A stretch of DNA of 44,960 nucleotides from Anaerolinea sp. (lineage in GTDB: Bacteria; Chloroflexota; Anaerolineae; Anaerolineales; Villigracilaceae): contig DYID01000027.1 in NCBI GenBank assembly GCA_020723805.1, positions 1 to 44,960 of the forward strand. The letters are read 5' to 3'. This document shows, one piece after another, positions 36,377 to 44,960 of this stretch. The first letter of the stretch is position 1. Each line of letters starts with the position of its first letter. The position numbers and the translations under genes were made by a program. The notes beneath the pieces are model-generated. The model had not been told where the DNA came from and ran no database searches. It saw only the letters and a program-made list of their open reading frames with translations.

Positions 36377-36939
36377 AGCGTATTCTGTTACTGACTGCCA
36401 TCGTTTTGTCTGCGTGCGCCGCGCCTGCAACGGCAGCGCCCGAAACCGTCATTTCCGATCCTTTGGCAATGGAGGACGCCATGACCATGCAACTCACCAG
36501 CCCTGCCTTCGCGCAGGGTCAGCCCATCCCCGTCAAATACACCTGCAAAGGCGAAGACATCTCCCCCGCCCTCGCCTGGGGCGAACCGCCCGCAGGCACA
36601 AAGTCCTTCGCCCTCATCATGGACGACCCCGATGCGCCCGTTGGGACCTGGGTGCATTGGGTGCTTTTCAACATCCCCGCCTCGGCGCGCGGACTGCCCG
36701 AAGCCTTCCCCGCCGACGCCTCCCTCCCCGACGGAAGCCTGAGCGGCAAAAACAGTTGGGGGCGCACCGGCTACGGCGGTCCCTGTCCGCCCAGCGGCAC
36801 ACACCGCTACTTCTTCAAACTCTACGCCCTCGACGAAACCCTCGCCATCAGCGCCGGCGCCGACAAAGGCGAACTCGAAAAAGCCATGGTCGGTCACATC
36901 CTCGCCAGCGCCGAACTGATGGGCACCTTCAGCAAATGA
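36373..36939 (+). CDS. PEBP (YbhB/YbcL) family lipoprotein
   Basis: A 188-aa protein starting at GTG 36373, four bases inside the preceding gene, with GAGAGGA upstream. The start KRILLLTAIVLSAC is a lipoprotein signal with Cys in the lipobox, so it should be lipid-anchored outside the membrane. The PEBP domain shows KYTCKGEDISPALAWGE, LIMDDPDAPVGTWVHWVLFN and WGRTGYGGPCPPSGTHRYFF with the ligand-pocket Asp and His residues. The family is often kinase-inhibitor-like, but its bacterial role is unclear. It overlaps the esterase gene by four bases. Confidence 0.93.
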   Translation: MKRILLLTAIVLSACAAPATAAPETVISDPLAMEDAMTMQLTSPAFAQGQPIPVKYTCKGEDISPALAWGEPPAGTKSFALIMDDPDAPVGTWVHWVLFNIPASARGLPEAFPADASLPDGSLSGKNSWGRTGYGGPCPPSGTHRYFFKLYALDETLAISAGADKGELEKAMVGHILASAELMGTFSK

Positions 36940-38015
36940 CGACGATTAACGACTCGCTCATTCAGCGTGCCTTCAAAGAGGGCAACCCCGTCATCCACGT
37001 TGACCGCGCGGTCTTCATCTGGCAGGGCGAGACAGCGCCTCACTTGATTGGCGACTTCGACCACTGGGGCGGCAGACCAAGACGATTCAAACGCCTCTCT
37101 CCTCGACTTGTGCCTGATTCGACCCAATCCATCTGGTACGCCGCCCTGACCCTTCCCCGCGACGCCTACGTCGAATATGCCTTCCGCGACCCGGTCTCGC
37201 AGGAGAATTTTCTCGACCCGTTGAATCGCAAGACTGTCCCCAACGGCATGGGCGGGCGCAACAACTACTTCTACATGCCCGAAACCATGCCCCCGCCGTT
37301 CCACCTGCGCCGCGCCGATGTGACGCCCGGCGCATTGACGAGCCATCGCGTGGAGACAAGATGGCTGCGCGACGATTACGAGCGTGAAATCTATTTCTAC
37401 CGTCCGCCGGTCAAACAGCCTGTTCCCCTGCTGGTGGTCTACGACGGGCAGGATTATCTGCACCGCGCCAAACTGAGCGTCATCGTGGACAACCTCATTG
37501 CCGAGGGACGCATCCAGCCGATTGCCATGGCGTTCCTCCCCAGCGGCGGGCGCTGGCGCAATGTGGAATACGCCTGTTCCGACGCTACGCTCCTGTGGCT
37601 CGATCAAATCGTCCTACCGCTGGCGCGTGAACAACTCAACCTGCTGGACGTGAAAAAACAGCCCGGCGCTTACGGTGTGCTGGGCGCCTCGCTGGGCGGG
37701 ACGATGGCTTTTCACACCGGCTTGCGGATGCCCGATGTGTTCGGCAAGGTCATCAGCCAGGCGGGAGCGTTCAACATCGAAAGCCGCGACTTCGTCATTG
37801 TGGACCTCGTCCGTCACGGGCAGGCGCGCGGGCTGAAGATCTGGATGGACATCGGACGGCTGGACATTCTGCTGGAAGACAACCGCTGGATATATGCGCT
37901 GTTGCAGGAGAAGGGATACAACGTGACCTGCCGCGAGTTCACGGCAGGTCATAACTACACGGCATGGAGGAATGACGTCTGGCGCGGGCTGGAGGCGCTG
38001 TTCCCAGTGGGATAA
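36936..38015 (+). CDS. Esterase, enterochelin-esterase-like (esterase D/PHB depolymerase fold)
   Basis: A 359-aa protein. The first 120 residues resemble an early-set/CBM48-like domain (FIWQGETAPHLIGDFDHWGG, YVEYAFRDP), followed by an alpha/beta hydrolase. PVPLLVVYDGQDYL, the nucleophile in GVLGASLGGTMAFHTG, Asp in WMDIGRLDILLED and His in TAGHNYTAWRN form the likely triad. Fes-type enzymes cut siderophore esters, but many relatives act on other esters. ATGA overlap with the lipoprotein gene implies coupling. No signal peptide is visible, so it is probably cytoplasmic. Confidence 0.86.
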   Translation: MTTINDSLIQRAFKEGNPVIHVDRAVFIWQGETAPHLIGDFDHWGGRPRRFKRLSPRLVPDSTQSIWYAALTLPRDAYVEYAFRDPVSQENFLDPLNRKTVPNGMGGRNNYFYMPETMPPPFHLRRADVTPGALTSHRVETRWLRDDYEREIYFYRPPVKQPVPLLVVYDGQDYLHRAKLSVIVDNLIAEGRIQPIAMAFLPSGGRWRNVEYACSDATLLWLDQIVLPLAREQLNLLDVKKQPGAYGVLGASLGGTMAFHTGLRMPDVFGKVISQAGAFNIESRDFVIVDLVRHGQARGLKIWMDIGRLDILLEDNRWIYALLQEKGYNVTCREFTAGHNYTAWRNDVWRGLEALFPVG

Positions 38016-38250: not shown

Positions 38251-41200
38251 ATGTCAAATAATATCGCCAAACGTAACGCTTTGTTTTCGGCTGTTGTCGT
38301 GTTTCTGTTGCTGGTCCTTTCCATAAGCAATAGTCTCACCGTGCCAGCCAGGGCGAGGGTGGAGGATACGGCTCGATCTGAGTCATCCCCAGTAAAGACA
38401 CCTCAGCCGACAGTCGAGCCACAACGGTTGAATGCGCCGCGCGAACCCATCCCCGCGCAAGTCATCATTCAATTTGCCCCCAACACATCTGCAAACGAAC
38501 GTGCCGCCTACATTAAGTCGCTAGGCGGCACTGTGGTTAATACTATCGAAGCATTGGATACTGTTATTGTGACTGTACCAGAACAGGTGGCGAAAGAGCC
38601 GTTGCCTGAGTCTCCCGTTGTTACTGAGATGGAACCCGATTATTACGTTTCTGCGCTGGACGATTTCATCCCCAACGACCCTCGCTACCCCGAACAATGG
38701 GCATTACCCGCCATTGGAGCGCCCGAAGCCTGGGCGCAACTGCCAGCGGACGCCCCACAGGTGACCGTCGCAGTCATTGACAGCGGCATCTGCGCCTCCC
38801 ACCCCGACCTGAGCGGACGCATCCTCGACGGCTGGGACTTCCTCGAAGACGATAGCGACCCACAGGATGACTTCGGTCACGGCTGTTCGGTGGCAGGCAT
38901 CATCGCCGCCAACATGAACGACGGCATCGGCATTGCCGGTGTCGCGCCGAATGCCCAGATCATGCCTTTGCGCGTCTTGAATGCCAGCGGTCTCGGCTCA
39001 TATTCCGACGTTGCCGCGGCGATTGTGTACGCGGCAGATAACGGCGCGCAGGTGATTAACCTGAGTTTGGGCGGTTCGAATCCCTCCACGACGTTGGAGA
39101 ACGCGGTCAATTATGCGATTTCAAAGGGCGTGATCGTCGTTGCCGCCGCAGGGAACAACGGCACAGAAGGCGCTCTCTACCCTGCCGCATATCCCGATGT
39201 GATTGCGGTTGGCTCGGTTGACCCCGATTTACAGCACAGCAGTTTCAGCAACTACGGTTCGCAGATTGACATTTGGGCGCCAGGGCGCGATATTCTCACC
39301 ACCAAGCGCGATGGCGGTTATGGGCTGGTAAGCGGCACTTCCTTTGCCGCGCCATATGTAACAGGGGCGGAAGCAATTTATCTTTTAGAATCTAAGGCAA
39401 TAGTGTTAAATAATGAAGTACTGTCATTTATTGACATGCCAATATTAGTCCCAACGGCAACTCAATCCCCTACGCAAGAATTCACAGAAGAAAGTCTTAT
39501 ACAAACCACCCTCGATATTCTGGACGAGCCAAATATAGTTGTAAACATTTTTGAAGTTAAGGTTCAGGAAGGCTGGGGTATTACTCGATTTGTGTTAGCA
39601 AATAAAAACTTACCACCAGAGACAGGATATGAGCCGGGAATTGCAATAGCAAGGTGGGAAGACGATCAATGGAAAATGGCGCTGGGAACATCGGAGGATT
39701 TCTTTTCTTGGCTCCCACTATTGCCTAATGGACTAATATCTGATGAAGAGAGAGATTTTATACTCCCGCGTAGTCCAGTTATTCAGGTCCAAACAGCATT
39801 GACAGGGTATAAACTCCCATTTCCAGGAGGCACAGCTTATTATGTCACACAAGGAAATAACAGTTTGCCATCTCACAATGAAGCTAACCATTCTGTTTAT
39901 GCATTTGACTTTAATTTAAACTCCAATAGCGAACCCATTATGGCCGCTCGTTCTGGAAGAGTCTATGACTTAAGAGAGACTCAAGGAACAGGGTGTCAAA
40001 ATATTTCTTGTTGGAAAACAGCCAATTTTATAGTTATTATTCACGAACCAGACGATGGAAAAGCTGATTTATATATGCATGTTTCACAAAATAGTGTGAT
40101 ACCAGAGATTGGGGAATGGGTAGAACAAGGCCAACCGATAGCTTTTGCAGGCGATAGTGGCTATACATGCAATTCTGATTGTTCTGGACCAGGAGCTCAC
40201 CTCCATTTTCAAGTTGAAGATAAACCTACAAACCGGAGTGTGACACTTGAGGATGCTAACTCAACTTGGTGGACAAATAGCAGTTATCAAATTCAATTTA
40301 GCGATACTTCTTTATACAATGTTAATGGCATCCCTCCTAAAGGCGGCCCATATGAGTCAAGCGGCGTCACACTGTATGAGCACTTTTATGATGACAATGA
40401 TCGAACTGCCGGTGGCCGTCGCCAGACTTTTACAGGCTATATTGGCGATCTTAATAATACGTTCTTAAAAAACGATGTAGCATCATCTGTAAGAGTTGCA
40501 AAAGATTGGTCTGTTATGCTTTGGAAAGGAATAAATAAAGGGCAACCATTTTTTCGAGCTACAAGATCAAGAAGATATTTTACAGATGAATTTTGGAGTG
40601 ATAATACAGGATTAGATAATAGTGTGCGCTCACTACGGGTAGGATATGCACAATGTATTAGCCCACTTGAGGTTGAGGGTACTGCCTCAATTGAACTAGG
40701 AATTTCTGCTATGGGAGGCGGTGATAGTTGCGATCCAGTTTCTCCAACAGACACTACCCCTCCAACAGGTTCATGGTTAAATCCAAGTAACAACTCTACA
40801 ATTTCATCATCCAATGTAACTTTGTCTGTAAACGCAAGCGATAACTCAGGCGGAAGTGGCGTGCGTGAAGTGCGCTGGAGCGCGAAATGGGGCGGGAACT
40901 GGTACGGCATTGGGTCAGATAACAGCGCTCCATATTCCATGAGTTGGAATATGTGCAACTCGGGCGTGCCTAATGGTGATGTTGAGCTGGGTTTTGAAGT
41001 TTGGGATAATGCCAACAATAAATGGGTTTACAGTGAACATTACACCAATTACCACATTACCAAAAATTATAACTGCTCTCAAGGCAGCAATGACACCACA
41101 CCTCCAACCGGTTCCTGGACCAGTCCGAGCAATGGGGTAACGATCAACTCCTCCACAGTCACATTGAGTGTGAATGCCAGCGATAATACAGGGGGCAGCG

Positions 41201-44200
41201 GCGTGAAGGAAGTCCGATGGAGCGCAAAGTGGAACAATCAATGGTTTGGTGTTGGAAACGATTCGTCTGCCCCATATTCAGTAGATTGGAATATGTGCTC
41301 ATCGGGTGTCCCCAACGGGGATATAGAGCTCGGTATGGAGGTTTGGGATAATGCCAATAATAAATGGGTTTATAGTGAGCATTACACCAATATCCATATA
41401 AATAAGAACTATAACTGTGGCGGCAATGATGGCGGTGGCGATCCACTTGCAGGGGCGCCGTGGAATACCCATGCCTGGCAAAATAAATATCTGGCGGGGT
41501 ACACAAATTGGGAGGGTACTATCTCGTGGGGTACATATCCATATATCAATTTCGACTGGGGCACGGGCGCTCCGTTTGGCTGGGGTGGCAATGAGTTTTC
41601 CATGCGAATGTGGCGAAGCGTTTATTTCCCGGGCGGGTATTACTCCTTCATGACAAAACATGATGATGGGATCAAGGTTTATCTTGATGGCACTTTGATC
41701 ATAGACGCCTGGTGGGACGGAGACGGAGGTCACGATGCTGGCAGAAATGTCTCCGCAGGTTACCATGAAGTCAAGGTCGAGTATTACGAAAACCAGGGAA
41801 ATGCAAAACTCCAGGTCGTATGGTATGGACCCGGGTACCCTGCGCCGGACAATAACCCGCCTGATGGAAAGATCACATCCCCCGCGCATCTTTCTGCAAC
41901 TACCAGCAGCACGCTCAATATATCTGCAGATGCATGGGATGATGCCAGTGGTGTGGATCATGTAGATTTTTGGGCGTGGTATTGTTATCAAAACGTGTGC
42001 GACTGGAGAAAACTGGGATCCGATTATTCATCCCCCTATACTTATAGTTGGAATTGGGGGTATCTCCCCGATTTGCATGTTTGGCTAAGTATTGATGTGT
42101 TTGACAAAACGGGGAAATCCAGGGGAAGCGCAGGCGGCTGGGTCGAGGTTGACCTGGACCGCAGTAATCCGACAGCCAGCATTACTTCCCCCGCGGCGAA
42201 TAGTTACCTGAACACAAACTCGATTCCCATTACCGTTACTGCAAATGATGGTCAGAGCGGCATTTGGAGGGTCCAATTCTTTGCGGGATACAATGAAACG
42301 GCGGGAGCCGGAGCGTTGGGCGAGGAGATTCTTCCGCCAGATCCGTATTCGCCTGAAGATCTCCAGAATGTTGATTCATCCGAGGTTACAGCCCAGGATT
42401 ACTGGCATGAGATCGGCTGGGACGAGGACGGCAGTAACGGCTGGAGCTTTACCTGGAACGCCGCTTCCGCCCCAGACCAAGGCGGGGCATCGGTCTTCGT
42501 CTATGTCTACGACAAAGCTGGTAACTACCAAGGCGCTCAAGTCTGGCCCGTGATGCTGGACCGCGCCTCCCCATCTTCGTCTGTAAACCCATTATCCCAA
42601 TACATCGGCTCGACATCATTCACGGTCAATTGGGCAGGGACAGATGCCACATCCGGTATCGCAAATTACGATATTCAATATCAAGATAATGGCGGCGCAT
42701 GGACGAATTGGCTTTCCGCCACATCGTCAACCTCTGCCACCTTTACGGGAGTGTTAGGTCATACCTATACGTTCCGGAGCCGGGCGCGAGACAGGGCGGG
42801 AAATGTGGAATCTTGGCCGTCCACTGCTGATGCGCAGACAACACTAGTAACAACTCCGTCGAACAACAACTTTACCTCCGCGATCCTTATATCCGCATTT
42901 CCATACAACCATACTGTGGATACGCGAGGAGCGACAACCGCTGGAGACGATCCGACCCCCACGTGCGGTTATGGTAAAAACTCCAATAGTGTCTGGTACA
43001 AATTTACCGCCCCAAGCACGGGATTGATCGAGATTGATACATGGGGGAGCAATTACGATACGGTTGTAGCCGTGTGGAGAGGAACAGCAGGGAGTCTCAC
43101 TCAAATCGCATGTAACGATGACGCCTACGGATATCTTGAGGCATGGCTGGAAGAGGTTCCCGTCACTGCAGGAACCACCTACTACATCGAAGTGATGGAT
43201 TACGGCAATCCCGGCGGCGGGAATCTTAAGTTATCTCTCGACTTTGCCGCATCCACATCCAATAACAATTTTGATACCCCAACCATTATCAGCGCCCTAC
43301 CATATAATGTTATTCAGGATACACGTGGAGCCACTCAGGCAAGTGATGATCCATCTATATCTGCTTGTAACCGCCTGCCTGGTCAGGCAAGCGTCTGGTA
43401 TCGCTATACACCATCAACTAATGTCAACTTGCTCATTGATACCAAAGGCAGTGATTATGACACGATGCTGGCAGTATGGACCGGTTCGCGCGGCAACCTT
43501 GTCCCTGTGGGGTGCAACGACGATATTGGCTACGTGAATGGAGTTTGGGATCAGGATTCGATACTGTCGGTTCCCGTTACCGCGGGCACGACCTACTACA
43601 TCGAAGCGTCCACATATGCGGGAAAGATAGACATTAATGGCGCCTCCGCCAGCGGACTGGACGAGAAACCGGATATCGAACCGGCTTCCGTCAATGGCTT
43701 GCAGGATTTACAGGAAAAGAAAATCGAAATTGACGAAAACGGCGGGTCGGTGATGTCCGCGCAATCGGAACGCCCCGACGCCATATCCGCGCAATTCTGG
43801 GGCGGAACGCTCCAACTTCACGTCACTTTCACTCATACAATTTCAGGGAATGCCGGCATCGCAGGCGCGATCCTAAGCTACACAGACGGCACCCTGAAAA
43901 CGGTCACTGCGGATGGAAGCGGAAACTATTCCATCACCGTACCCCATGGCTGGTCCGGGGCGGTCACCCCCTATAAGACCGGATATAAGTTTACGCCGCC
44001 CATCAGGACCTACAGCAGCCTGCAGAACGATCTAACGGGTCAGGATTACACGCCGCAGGCTTGTACCGTCTGTGCCGACATTGATGTCTTGATCGGCGGG
44101 AACTCGATGGGTAGGTACACCCTGGCAGGCGGCGAGGAGAAACGCGAATACTACCCCGTCAGCGGCGGACCGGTCAAGGTGGAGAGCACCAATGGCGTGA

Positions 44201-44960
44201 ACATCGTCTCCGCCATCCGCCTGCAATCCTACGCCAATAACACCCTGTACTCCTTCGTCGAGACCATGGGCGTGCCGCAGGGACTGCTCTCGTACAAGTA
44301 CGTCTTCCCCACCTACAACAACACCTGGGCGCCGCTCAACTCGCAAATCCGCGTCAGCAACCTGGAGACCACTCCCACCACCGTGCGCATCACCATCGGC
44401 AACGACGTAGTCTGGGAACAGCAGATGCAGGGACTGGAAGAACAGCGCCTGTACTTCAACGCCAGCGGCGGACCGGTCATCGTCGAGAGCCTGGATACCA
44501 GCAAGAAGATTGTGGCGGCGATCCGCCTGCAGTCCTACGCCAACAACCTCCTCTACAGCTTCTCCGAGACCATGGGCATCCCAGACCAGATGCTTTCGTA
44601 CCGCTACTACTTCCCGACCTACAACAACACCTGGGCGCCGCTCAACTCGCAAATCCGCGTCAGCAACCTGGAGACCACTCCCGCCACCGTGCGCATCACC
44701 ATCGGCAGCAGCGTGGTCTGGGAACGGCAGATGCAGGGACGCGAAGAACAGCGCCTGTACTTCCCGGTCAGCGGCGGACCGGTCATCGTCGAGAGCCTGG
44801 ATACCAGCAAGAAGATTGTGGCGGCAATCCGTCTGCAATCCTACGCCAATAACACCCTGTACTCCTTCGTCGAGACCATGGGTGTGCCGGAAGGACTGCT
44901 CTCCTACAAGTACTACTTCCCGACCTACAACAACACCTGGGCGCCGCTCAACTCGCAAAT
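38251..44960 (+). CDS. Giant secreted S8/M23 protease with surface repeats, 3' incomplete
   Basis: I read every codon from ATG 38251 to the window end and found no stop: 2236 codons, unfinished. A signal peptide ends near PARA (residue 35). A prodomain-like region follows (PAQVIIQFAPNTSANERAAYIKS). Next is a subtilisin domain with Asp177 (AVIDSGICASHPDL), His210 (FGHGCSVAG), Asn302 and Ser364 (SGTSFAAPYVTG). An M23-like domain has His547, Asp553, His610 and the HLH pair 650/652. Then come two 114-aa Ig-like repeats, a PA14 domain (about 1071-1197), further Ig/FN3-like domains, two PPC-like domains, a carboxypeptidase-regulatory-like domain and 102-aa repeats. Residues about 377-864 use AT-rich codons unlike the rest. 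It should be exported and act on proteins and perhaps peptidoglycan. Confidence 0.9.
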   Translation, partial: MSNNIAKRNALFSAVVVFLLLVLSISNSLTVPARARVEDTARSESSPVKTPQPTVEPQRLNAPREPIPAQVIIQFAPNTSANERAAYIKSLGGTVVNTIEALDTVIVTVPEQVAKEPLPESPVVTEMEPDYYVSALDDFIPNDPRYPEQWALPAIGAPEAWAQLPADAPQVTVAVIDSGICASHPDLSGRILDGWDFLEDDSDPQDDFGHGCSVAGIIAANMNDGIGIAGVAPNAQIMPLRVLNASGLGSYSDVAAAIVYAADNGAQVINLSLGGSNPSTTLENAVNYAISKGVIVVAAAGNNGTEGALYPAAYPDVIAVGSVDPDLQHSSFSNYGSQIDIWAPGRDILTTKRDGGYGLVSGTSFAAPYVTGAEAIYLLESKAIVLNNEVLSFIDMPILVPTATQSPTQEFTEESLIQTTLDILDEPNIVVNIFEVKVQEGWGITRFVLANKNLPPETGYEPGIAIARWEDDQWKMALGTSEDFFSWLPLLPNGLISDEERDFILPRSPVIQVQTALTGYKLPFPGGTAYYVTQGNNSLPSHNEANHSVYAFDFNLNSNSEPIMAARSGRVYDLRETQGTGCQNISCWKTANFIVIIHEPDDGKADLYMHVSQNSVIPEIGEWVEQGQPIAFAGDSGYTCNSDCSGPGAHLHFQVEDKPTNRSVTLEDANSTWWTNSSYQIQFSDTSLYNVNGIPPKGGPYESSGVTLYEHFYDDNDRTAGGRRQTFTGYIGDLNNTFLKNDVASSVRVAKDWSVMLWKGINKGQPFFRATRSRRYFTDEFWSDNTGLDNSVRSLRVGYAQCISPLEVEGTASIELGISAMGGGDSCDPVSPTDTTPPTGSWLNPSNNSTISSSNVTLSVNASDNSGGSGVREVRWSAKWGGNWYGIGSDNSAPYSMSWNMCNSGVPNGDVELGFEVWDNANNKWVYSEHYTNYHITKNYNCSQGSNDTTPPTGSWTSPSNGVTINSSTVTLSVNASDNTGGSGVKEVRWSAKWNNQWFGVGNDSSAPYSVDWNMCSSGVPNGDIELGMEVWDNANNKWVYSEHYTNIHINKNYNCGGNDGGGDPLAGAPWNTHAWQNKYLAGYTNWEGTISWGTYPYINFDWGTGAPFGWGGNEFSMRMWRSVYFPGGYYSFMTKHDDGIKVYLDGTLIIDAWWDGDGGHDAGRNVSAGYHEVKVEYYENQGNAKLQVVWYGPGYPAPDNNPPDGKITSPAHLSATTSSTLNISADAWDDASGVDHVDFWAWYCYQNVCDWRKLGSDYSSPYTYSWNWGYLPDLHVWLSIDVFDKTGKSRGSAGGWVEVDLDRSNPTASITSPAANSYLNTNSIPITVTANDGQSGIWRVQFFAGYNETAGAGALGEEILPPDPYSPEDLQNVDSSEVTAQDYWHEIGWDEDGSNGWSFTWNAASAPDQGGASVFVYVYDKAGNYQGAQVWPVMLDRASPSSSVNPLSQYIGSTSFTVNWAGTDATSGIANYDIQYQDNGGAWTNWLSATSSTSATFTGVLGHTYTFRSRARDRAGNVESWPSTADAQTTLVTTPSNNNFTSAILISAFPYNHTVDTRGATTAGDDPTPTCGYGKNSNSVWYKFTAPSTGLIEIDTWGSNYDTVVAVWRGTAGSLTQIACNDDAYGYLEAWLEEVPVTAGTTYYIEVMDYGNPGGGNLKLSLDFAASTSNNNFDTPTIISALPYNVIQDTRGATQASDDPSISACNRLPGQASVWYRYTPSTNVNLLIDTKGSDYDTMLAVWTGSRGNLVPVGCNDDIGYVNGVWDQDSILSVPVTAGTTYYIEASTYAGKIDINGASASGLDEKPDIEPASVNGLQDLQEKKIEIDENGGSVMSAQSERPDAISAQFWGGTLQLHVTFTHTISGNAGIAGAILSYTDGTLKTVTADGSGNYSITVPHGWSGAVTPYKTGYKFTPPIRTYSSLQNDLTGQDYTPQACTVCADIDVLIGGNSMGRYTLAGGEEKREYYPVSGGPVKVESTNGVNIVSAIRLQSYANNTLYSFVETMGVPQGLLSYKYVFPTYNNTWAPLNSQIRVSNLETTPTTVRITIGNDVVWEQQMQGLEEQRLYFNASGGPVIVESLDTSKKIVAAIRLQSYANNLLYSFSETMGIPDQMLSYRYYFPTYNNTWAPLNSQIRVSNLETTPATVRITIGSSVVWERQMQGREEQRLYFPVSGGPVIVESLDTSKKIVAAIRLQSYANNTLYSFVETMGVPEGLLSYKYYFPTYNNTWAPLNSQ
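40750..41418 (+). repeat. Two 342-bp Ig-like repeat units in the protease
   Basis: Both units begin DTTPPTGSW and share LSVNASDN, SGSGV or GGSGV, EVRWSAKW, SGVPNGD and EVWDNANNKWVYSEHYTN. The period is 342 bases (114 aa; starts at 40750 and 41092). The first unit has more AT-rich codons at its beginning. Confidence 0.9.
42862..43640 (+). repeat. Two 133-aa PPC-like domains in the protease
   Basis: Two units start at NNNF (42862 and 43261) and share PYN, DTRGAT, SVWY, YDT, AVW, CNDD and VPVTAGTTYYIE. They look like C-terminal PPC-type domains of secreted proteases, with the internal pair CNDD and an upstream cysteine in each. Confidence 0.85.
44080..44960 (+). repeat. 306-bp tandem repeats at the right edge
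   Basis: TYNNTWAPLNSQ recurs with its first codon at 44314, 44620 and 44926, an exact period of 306 bases (102 aa). Units share SGGPV, VES, AAIRLQSYANN, YSF, ETMG, LLSY, YYFPTYNNTWAPLNSQ and VSNLETTP, and are nearly identical in DNA. The array continues beyond the window. Confidence 0.95.

Follow-up and report, generated by a model that had tools for sequence, protein, structure and literature searches.

The stretch analyzed here (the window) comprises 44,960 nucleotides of an Anaerolinea sp. assembly (GCA_020723805.1, contig DYID01000027.1) and is a complete contig (C15) of a genome of 3.69 Mb in 54 contigs. Its last part, 38251..44960 on the forward strand, holds a gene for a protein in which a subtilisin-type serine peptidase (S8) and an M23-type zinc metallopeptidase lie in one chain. 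The gene starts at ATG 38251, though TTG 38236 is possible too, and the start is preceded by GGGAGG. The frame is open from either codon to the last base of the window, in agreement with the preliminary description of this DNA, and since the window spans the whole contig, the 3′ end of the gene is the end of the assembly. All residue numbers are counted from ATG 38251.

The Pfam search of the whole chain returned 13 families at E values up to 1, among them Peptidase_S8 (1.4e-51), Big_7 (1.1e-37, four stretches), Peptidase_M23 (9e-10), PA14 (5e-9), fn3 (2e-5) and Fervidolysin_NPro-like (7.6e-5, above its own cut-off). A signal peptide read by eye, with a hydrophobic stretch and then AxA (38251..38358), is followed by the subtilase prodomain (Fervidolysin_NPro-like, 38422..38586, 23.5 bits against a cut-off of 21) and a thermitase-like S8 catalytic domain (38758..39381). 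The region behind the S8 domain, hereafter the slot (39388..40758, residues ~380–836), is made up of an N-domain (39481..39768), the M23 domain (39775..40305) and a linker domain (40318..40758), and is filled by another M23 module in the nearest ortholog. Thereafter come the first two Ig-like (Big_7) domains (40759..41430, bounds by eye, with the best Big_7 stretch at residues 952–1016), PA14 (41536..41844), fn3 (42604..42825) and C-terminal repeats of ~100 aa each (44062..44960, bounds by eye), in which the GC content at third codon positions (GC3) is ~0.85; all of these lie on the forward strand. The Ig, PA14 and repeat domains had been recognized before and were recovered, while the PPC-like domain also claimed there is absent from the 13 families; that part of the chain gives a galactose-binding-like match instead (GBD_T9SS_assoc, 42907..43197, 3.1e-5, below cut-off). 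The linker domain has no Pfam match and obtained no convincing solved relative in a PDB sequence search, where the best hit (E 0.00063), a likeness to G-beta propeller repeats, was judged to be chance; by eye, it looks like a beta/gamma-crystallin motif. The product is a secreted multidomain protein with two peptidase domains, probably associated with a surface.

The S8 domain carries the triad Asp177, His210 and Ser364 within DSG, GHG and GTS motifs. The closest solved sequences are AK.1 protease (PDB 1dbi, E 2.7e-64) and thermitase (1thm, E 1.9e-60), both of which are, to our knowledge, single-domain proteases with no fused metallopeptidase. The Pfam match of the S8 domain stops at profile positions 252–258 of 288 throughout the group to which it belongs (38758..39381 in the window; L154; L299; L300; L301), and the S8 protein of genome G335, described below, reaches 288.

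The second peptidase domain scored 39.1 bits for Peptidase_M23 in the whole-chain search, where the cut-off is 28.7, and 44.3 bits in a further profile search, with only general endolysin, peptidase and tail matches in a search of PHROGs. An AlphaFold2 model of residues 385–715, built from 38 sequences, has a mean predicted local distance difference test (pLDDT) score of 76; 104 of its residues score 90 or higher. This model matched 44 PDB chains at Foldseek E ≤ 0.001, and the VIA Z scores were 14.3 for the LytM domain of DipM, 14.0 for lysostaphin, 13.3 for LytM, 11.7 for LasA and 11.3 for beta-lytic protease (BLP). A domain search and a structure prediction had been proposed as checks, and the former gave Pfam M23 over the cut-off and the latter a LytM-type fold, so that in the model the domain is of the M23/LytM type. 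Lysostaphin, LytM, LasA and BLP share this fold, with a variable H(x)nD motif, and we know of no S8 domain in any of them.

All residues named in the preliminary description, namely the S8 triad and His547, Asp553, His610, His650 and His652, are present at those positions. As regards their role as zinc ligands, Asp553 and His652 remain likely, and His610 and His650 are also conserved, whereas His547 is to be replaced: the alignment indicates that His542 is most likely the ligand, giving His542(x)10Asp553 together with His650-x-His652. His547 was judged less likely, its position not being conserved among the relatives, where that of His542 is. The N-domain–M23 unit was matched in 94 of the 251 genomes of the order and is carried by 59 Chloroflexota loci, and these relatives keep a His before YAFDF or a similar sequence, usually in an SxxH context, at a variable distance from the Asp. 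A pattern search detected such a His in 50 of the 59 loci, separated from the Asp by 8 to 21 residues, and the nine loci missed show one by eye; the canonical His four residues before the Asp is present in 24 of the 50. The near relative L156 (genome G300) has H(x)10D, the same spacing as His542–Asp553, and no second His. Two other alignments put the conserved-His column on Ser538, so it is the local-pair alignment and L156 that support the placing of His542. Known M23 enzymes differ in their H(x)nD spacing, which is x12 in LasA and x7 in gp13 (PMC9662197), and the zinc ligands of BLP are His22, Asp36 and His123 (PMC9783410). Compared with the M23A enzymes, which have H(x)12–13D, the window domain has n = 10, and its Z scores with LasA (11.7) and BLP (11.3) lie below that with lysostaphin (14.0). 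The long His–Asp spacing had earlier been taken to cast doubt on activity; it was measured from the probably wrong His, and since the spacing varies in known M23 enzymes it is no argument against activity. Two distant relatives of the M23 unit, L038 (G171) and L046 (G192), carry an insertion before the place of HxH; L046 retains HLHF, and L038 has no HxH motif and may be inactive.

The N-domain consists of a helix, four strands and two helices and is common to the Anaerolineales M23 relatives. In the model it has a cystatin/NTF2-like arrangement, which may be just a common one; on its own it gave no Foldseek match at E ≤ 0.001. It is a candidate pro-region of the metallopeptidase.

The nearest relative of the whole protein is encoded in G316, a genome of the same family and another genus (contig C41, L154:1871-8308, a frame of 2146 aa). 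Among the matches listed for 152 genomes of the family, it is the only S8 protein close to that of the window (79% over query residues 3–290), and when the G316 protein was used to search 400 genomes of the order, its nearest match was the window gene (78%), with the next S8 proteins among the matches listed at 53% or less. The two proteins have the same order of S8, M23 in the same slot and Big_7/PA14, with 82% identity over 314 aa in the S8 domain and 59.5% over 1449 columns behind the slot; the G316 protein ends in QLRIGVP, and its catalytic residues are present by eye. This ortholog bears on the suspicion, raised earlier, that the two domains were brought together by an assembly join. The window contig does end in repeats, as do several contigs of its genome, but an assembly chimera of an S8 gene and an M23 gene is scarcely credible, since both junctions preserve the reading frame and lie inside the contig, and since the G316 ortholog shows the same architecture in another assembly.

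What fills the slot differs between the two orthologs. In G316 it holds an M23 domain of its own (Pfam 9.4e-18) with an HxxxD motif, and neither an N-domain nor a linker domain is seen there. The two slots align over the M23 core only, with 24% identity in 143 columns, and the number of identical residues per 50 falls from 41–48 (residues 140–339) through 31 (340–389) to 3–17 (390–839), and returns to 41–46 (840–1039). In a maximum-likelihood tree of 49 M23 cores, the window M23 falls into the Anaerolineales N-domain–M23 clade (100/99), beside L155 and L156 (96/69), while the G316 M23 groups with M23–PD40 proteins of G423 and G129 (100/99). Queries with the G316 type of M23 had matches in all 251 genomes of the order, and because such domains are common they were used just for finding near relatives. 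Rapid divergence of one ancestral M23, instead of exchange, could in principle have produced this difference, as both slots hold an M23, the pairwise alignment still finds the core, and the window M23 has a long branch. We consider it improbable, however, because identity drops over the slot and recovers behind it, the two M23 domains belong to different, well-supported families, an approximately unbiased (AU) test rejects them as one clade (p 1.6e-5), and the adjoining domains differ too, the N-domain and linker domain of the window having no counterpart in the G316 alignment. Exchange is thus the preferred reading: the comparison suggests that the slot behind the S8 domain is an exchangeable part, in which the closest relatives hold different zinc enzymes.

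A step in composition coincides with the slot. The GC3 of the window gene falls from 0.63 in the S8 domain to 0.29 across the N-domain and M23 and 0.26 across the linker domain, and rises again to 0.49 with the first Ig domains; sliding windows of 60 codons give 0.18–0.38 over the slot against 0.62–0.80 across most of the S8 domain. The G316 gene has values of 0.55 (S8), 0.27 (slot) and 0.48 (Ig domains). Four of the five genes neighbouring the window gene have a GC3 of 0.74–0.79, and one has 0.53, whilst the M23 units of 24 chosen relatives (of the 59) range from 0.39 to 0.90.

The S8 and M23 halves appear to have separate histories, as traced from their relatives. When the S8 and M23 parts were searched together in 61 genomes (that of the window and 60 relatives), the listed matches outside the genome itself covered either the S8 domain or the N-domain–M23 unit, never both. 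The N-domain–M23 proteins of Anaerolineales (e.g., Thermanaerothrix daxensis L075, with a frame of 1290 aa) share the unit, 37 of them at 22–31% identity; unlike the window protein, they have no S8 in the frame, and the M23 unit stands near the frame start. In the 59 Chloroflexota loci, the match begins ~80–210 residues from the start of the frame, and less in two frames cut by contig ends. From the S8 side, blastp with both M23 types found an M23 in 0 of 33 S8 frames > 1000 aa and then in 0 of 11 more. In 40 distant long S8 frames (of 41, L192 being left out with only 207 aa remaining), Pfam gave neither M23 nor M10 within the stretch of up to 950 aa that follows the S8 domain. Among 40 further S8 loci, some of whose genes were fetched twice, there was no M23 fusion either, and the sole M23 frame (L152) is the separate neighbour in G335. 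From the M23 side, blastp found no S8 in frame among 29 N-domain–M23 loci, 40 regions, 59 Chloroflexota loci and 20 loci of other phyla, and recovered the M23 itself in 29 of 29, 39 of 40, 55 of 59 and 8 of 20 of these, respectively; the sets overlap, the 40 regions were picked for frames of ~690 aa or more, and the 29 loci represent part of a listing with flanks of at most 1.5 kb. A contig scan with the window's own M23 unit as the query gave no relative. The preliminary description had called the architecture unusual, and, beyond the window and G316, no S8 or M23 relative examined indeed has both in one frame; the search is no census, and S8–M23 fusions may exist among S8 and M23 domains of other types or in other phyla. 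In the literature, the available part of a survey of M23 gives as its catalytic partners Rpf-like, amidase, M56 and NlpC/P60 domains, in < 1% of hits, and does not name S8 there (PMC9662197). The portions available of two reviews do not name a fusion of a serine protease with a peptidoglycan-type metallopeptidase, and a search aimed at S8–M23 fusions or their setting, mostly outside subscription papers, found none. As a modular secreted peptidase, the protein is of a known kind; its pattern of exchange is unusual.

One genome carries the two enzymes as neighbouring genes. In G335 (C151, L155:1646-6433), an S8 gene is followed immediately, in the same orientation, by an M23-unit gene, with 108 b between the frames; the S8 frame of 510 aa has a hydrophobic segment near its C-terminus, and the M23 frame of 1050 aa has its own signal-like N-terminus. 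This M23 is one of the two nearest to that of the window in the tree, and the gene pair is the only one among the loci in the M23-side blastp. The pair resembles an unfused counterpart of the window gene, the export features of each being read by eye. Within the genus of the window, G016 has an M23-unit gene elsewhere, with a frame of 637 aa and 30% identity.

In 400 genomes from across the phylum, the next-closest S8 relatives among the matches listed all come from G647, a genome of the same class and another order, whose three genes show 57–65% in the S8 part. A tree of S8 domains (66 rows, quick method) groups the S8 domain of the window with that of G316 and all three from G647 in a single clade, with a Shimodaira–Hasegawa-like approximate likelihood ratio test (SH-aLRT) support of 99. 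Two of the G647 proteins, L299:722-11176 (3485 aa) and L300:1509-6563 (1685 aa), have 53% S8 identity over 317 and 313 columns and likewise a zinc peptidase behind the S8 domain; it is, however, a Peptidase_M10 (matrixin) domain, and their other domains differ from those of the window protein. The M10 profiles are over the cut-off (5.9e-14 and 9.3e-29, respectively), with the HExxHxxGxxH motifs HEVGHAIGLSH and HEIGHSIGLNH. Four of the five clade members therefore carry a zinc peptidase behind the S8 domain, from three lineages (two of M23 and one of M10). Adjoining this clade in the tree are S8 proteins with multiheme cytochrome modules (Paired_CXXCH) behind the S8 domain, which make up 15 of the 40 long S8 proteins scanned; all 15 Paired_CXXCH_1 carriers (L161–L166, L168, L169, L171–L174, L176–L178) come from the family of the window. 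Elsewhere, S8 is fused with clostripain (Peptidase_C11; L185, G344), sortase (L186, G044) and a CAP domain (L305, G542).

A conserved S8 domain with changing zinc peptidases behind it fits a fusion of an activator with its client. Matrixins depend on other proteases for activation, the S8 convertase furin being one of them. In the mechanism we propose, the S8 domain would remove its own prodomain after export and would then cut the linker or the N-domain, by which the metallopeptidase would be matured or released in cis; the Ig, PA14 and repeat domains would hold the protein at the surface of the producer or of its target, where the two peptidases would break down the proteins of dead or competing cells and the cross-bridges of their peptidoglycan. 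That the protein is a surface two-peptidase protein with an exchangeable slot, whose S8 domain matures or releases the metallopeptidase in cis, is a reading to which we give about even chances. It takes up the earlier suggestion that one domain could mature the other, to which the M23 and M10 partners within one S8 clade add support; cis-maturation itself, like the activity, surface location and targets, is what we infer from the domains. More tentatively, this small clade of secreted Chloroflexota subtilases might serve as a chassis whose zinc-metallopeptidase cassette can be exchanged (two lineages of M23, one of M10), and the subtilase would be the built-in activator of whichever metallo-zymogen stands behind it. 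The counterpart of such an arrangement would be furin-type S8 convertases acting on matrixins. By a similarly tentative analogy, it might also be a cis version of the maturation of LasA-type M23 enzymes by other proteases. Subtilisin E is self-maturing, whereas the M23A enzymes, BLP among them, are not and rely on further proteases outside the cell; separate proteases mature LasA and BLP (PMC8715609).

Several observations weigh against this reading. The fold match of the N-domain is weak (best VIA Z 7.4), which makes its role as a pro-region tentative. The row of the window M23 in the tree is long (1.58), so that its exact place is unsure. As for composition, the GC3 drop in G316 starts before the end of the S8 domain (0.45–0.35 in windows starting at 301–361), the G647 genes show no step, and the M23 gene of G335 starts with 350 codons at a GC3 of 0.32, so low GC3 also occurs outside the fusion. 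The third G647 protein (C91, a frame of 478 aa) is S8 alone, with no metallopeptidase, and S8 relatives outside the clade bear many other kinds of partner, such as cytochromes, kelch, CAP, sortase and clostripain. The S8 match spans only profile positions 3–253 of 288 in the window and ends at 252 in G316 and at 252–258 in the three G647 proteins, so the usual end of a subtilase domain is missing or diverged in all of them. This incomplete end, together with the absence of HxH from the distant M23 member L038, would fit one or both peptidase domains being inactive and serving binding or regulation, as do EnvC-type LytM domains with no complete zinc site. We regard this as unlikely, given that the window protein has the catalytic residues to be expected, as does that of G316 by eye, and that hardly any of the aligned relatives departs from the H...D and HxH positions.

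The varied partners of the distant S8 proteins may also mean that S8 is a general N-terminal part rather than an activator. It is possible, though less probable than maturation in cis, that the S8 domain and the metallopeptidase are merely delivered together and act independently, on envelope proteins and on peptidoglycan, with any protease able to effect release. The Big_7, PA14, fn3 and repeat domains behind the enzymes do resemble a shared stalk, and non-peptidase partners (multiheme cytochromes in 15 of 40, kelch, CAP) occur beside sortase and clostripain in the distant relatives. On the other side, a zinc peptidase in four of the five members of the closest clade, from three lineages, is more specific than general cargo, an objection limited by the small size of the clade and by two of the four being paralogs of one genome.

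Three zinc-peptidase lineages in one slot would provide a natural experiment on modular enzyme evolution, and the arrangement lets activation in cis be tested through a single active-site change. Bacteriolytic M23A-like enzymes have been hard to produce, as they are not self-maturing (PMC8715609), and the arrangement could yield self-maturing ones. The protein also adds to the little-known extracellular enzymes of the mostly uncultured Anaerolineales.

The upstream neighbour of the gene is a putative esterase (36936..38015, forward strand). Similarity to four genomes of the same genus (G014, G007, G001 and G006) stops at the 3′ end of the esterase, at window position ~38002, and the 8–13 kb fetched from each of them contain no frame matching the window protein, so the gene is absent at this locus in all four. 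The best G316 match to the esterase is 46%, compared with 82% for the S8 domain, which fits a transfer between genera, though this rests on one gene. G014 is a near relative (polymerase X 96%, esterase 90%), and its sequence behind the esterase corresponds to C18:40651-43008 (reverse strand) of the window's own genome. On that strand, C18 begins in these C-terminal repeats, shares a 520-b overlap (96%) with the end of the window and reaches a stop after QLRFGVP, close to the QLRIGVP end of the G316 protein; the gene therefore most likely continues onto C18. Counting the window, the genome has the repeats at 14 places, and they are 97–99% identical in two other genes, so the join of C15 and C18 and the number of repeats are provisional.

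Of the genes sharing the repeat stalk at 97–99%, one has Chlamydia-PMP repeats and the other GSDH and glycoside-hydrolase-like domains. Several contigs of the genome end inside such repeats, which were found on C36, C18, C30, C35, C23, C25, C32 and C44 of the assembly (G000). Frames around the G316 ortholog (L154:1-10847, C41) finish, as it does, in the QLRIGVP repeat stalk. Within the genus, what follows the esterase is variable (L240–L243; gene names by eye): G014 has pentapeptide-repeat-like and coaBC-like genes, G006 has a coaBC-like gene soon after the esterase, and G007 and G001 have other genes.

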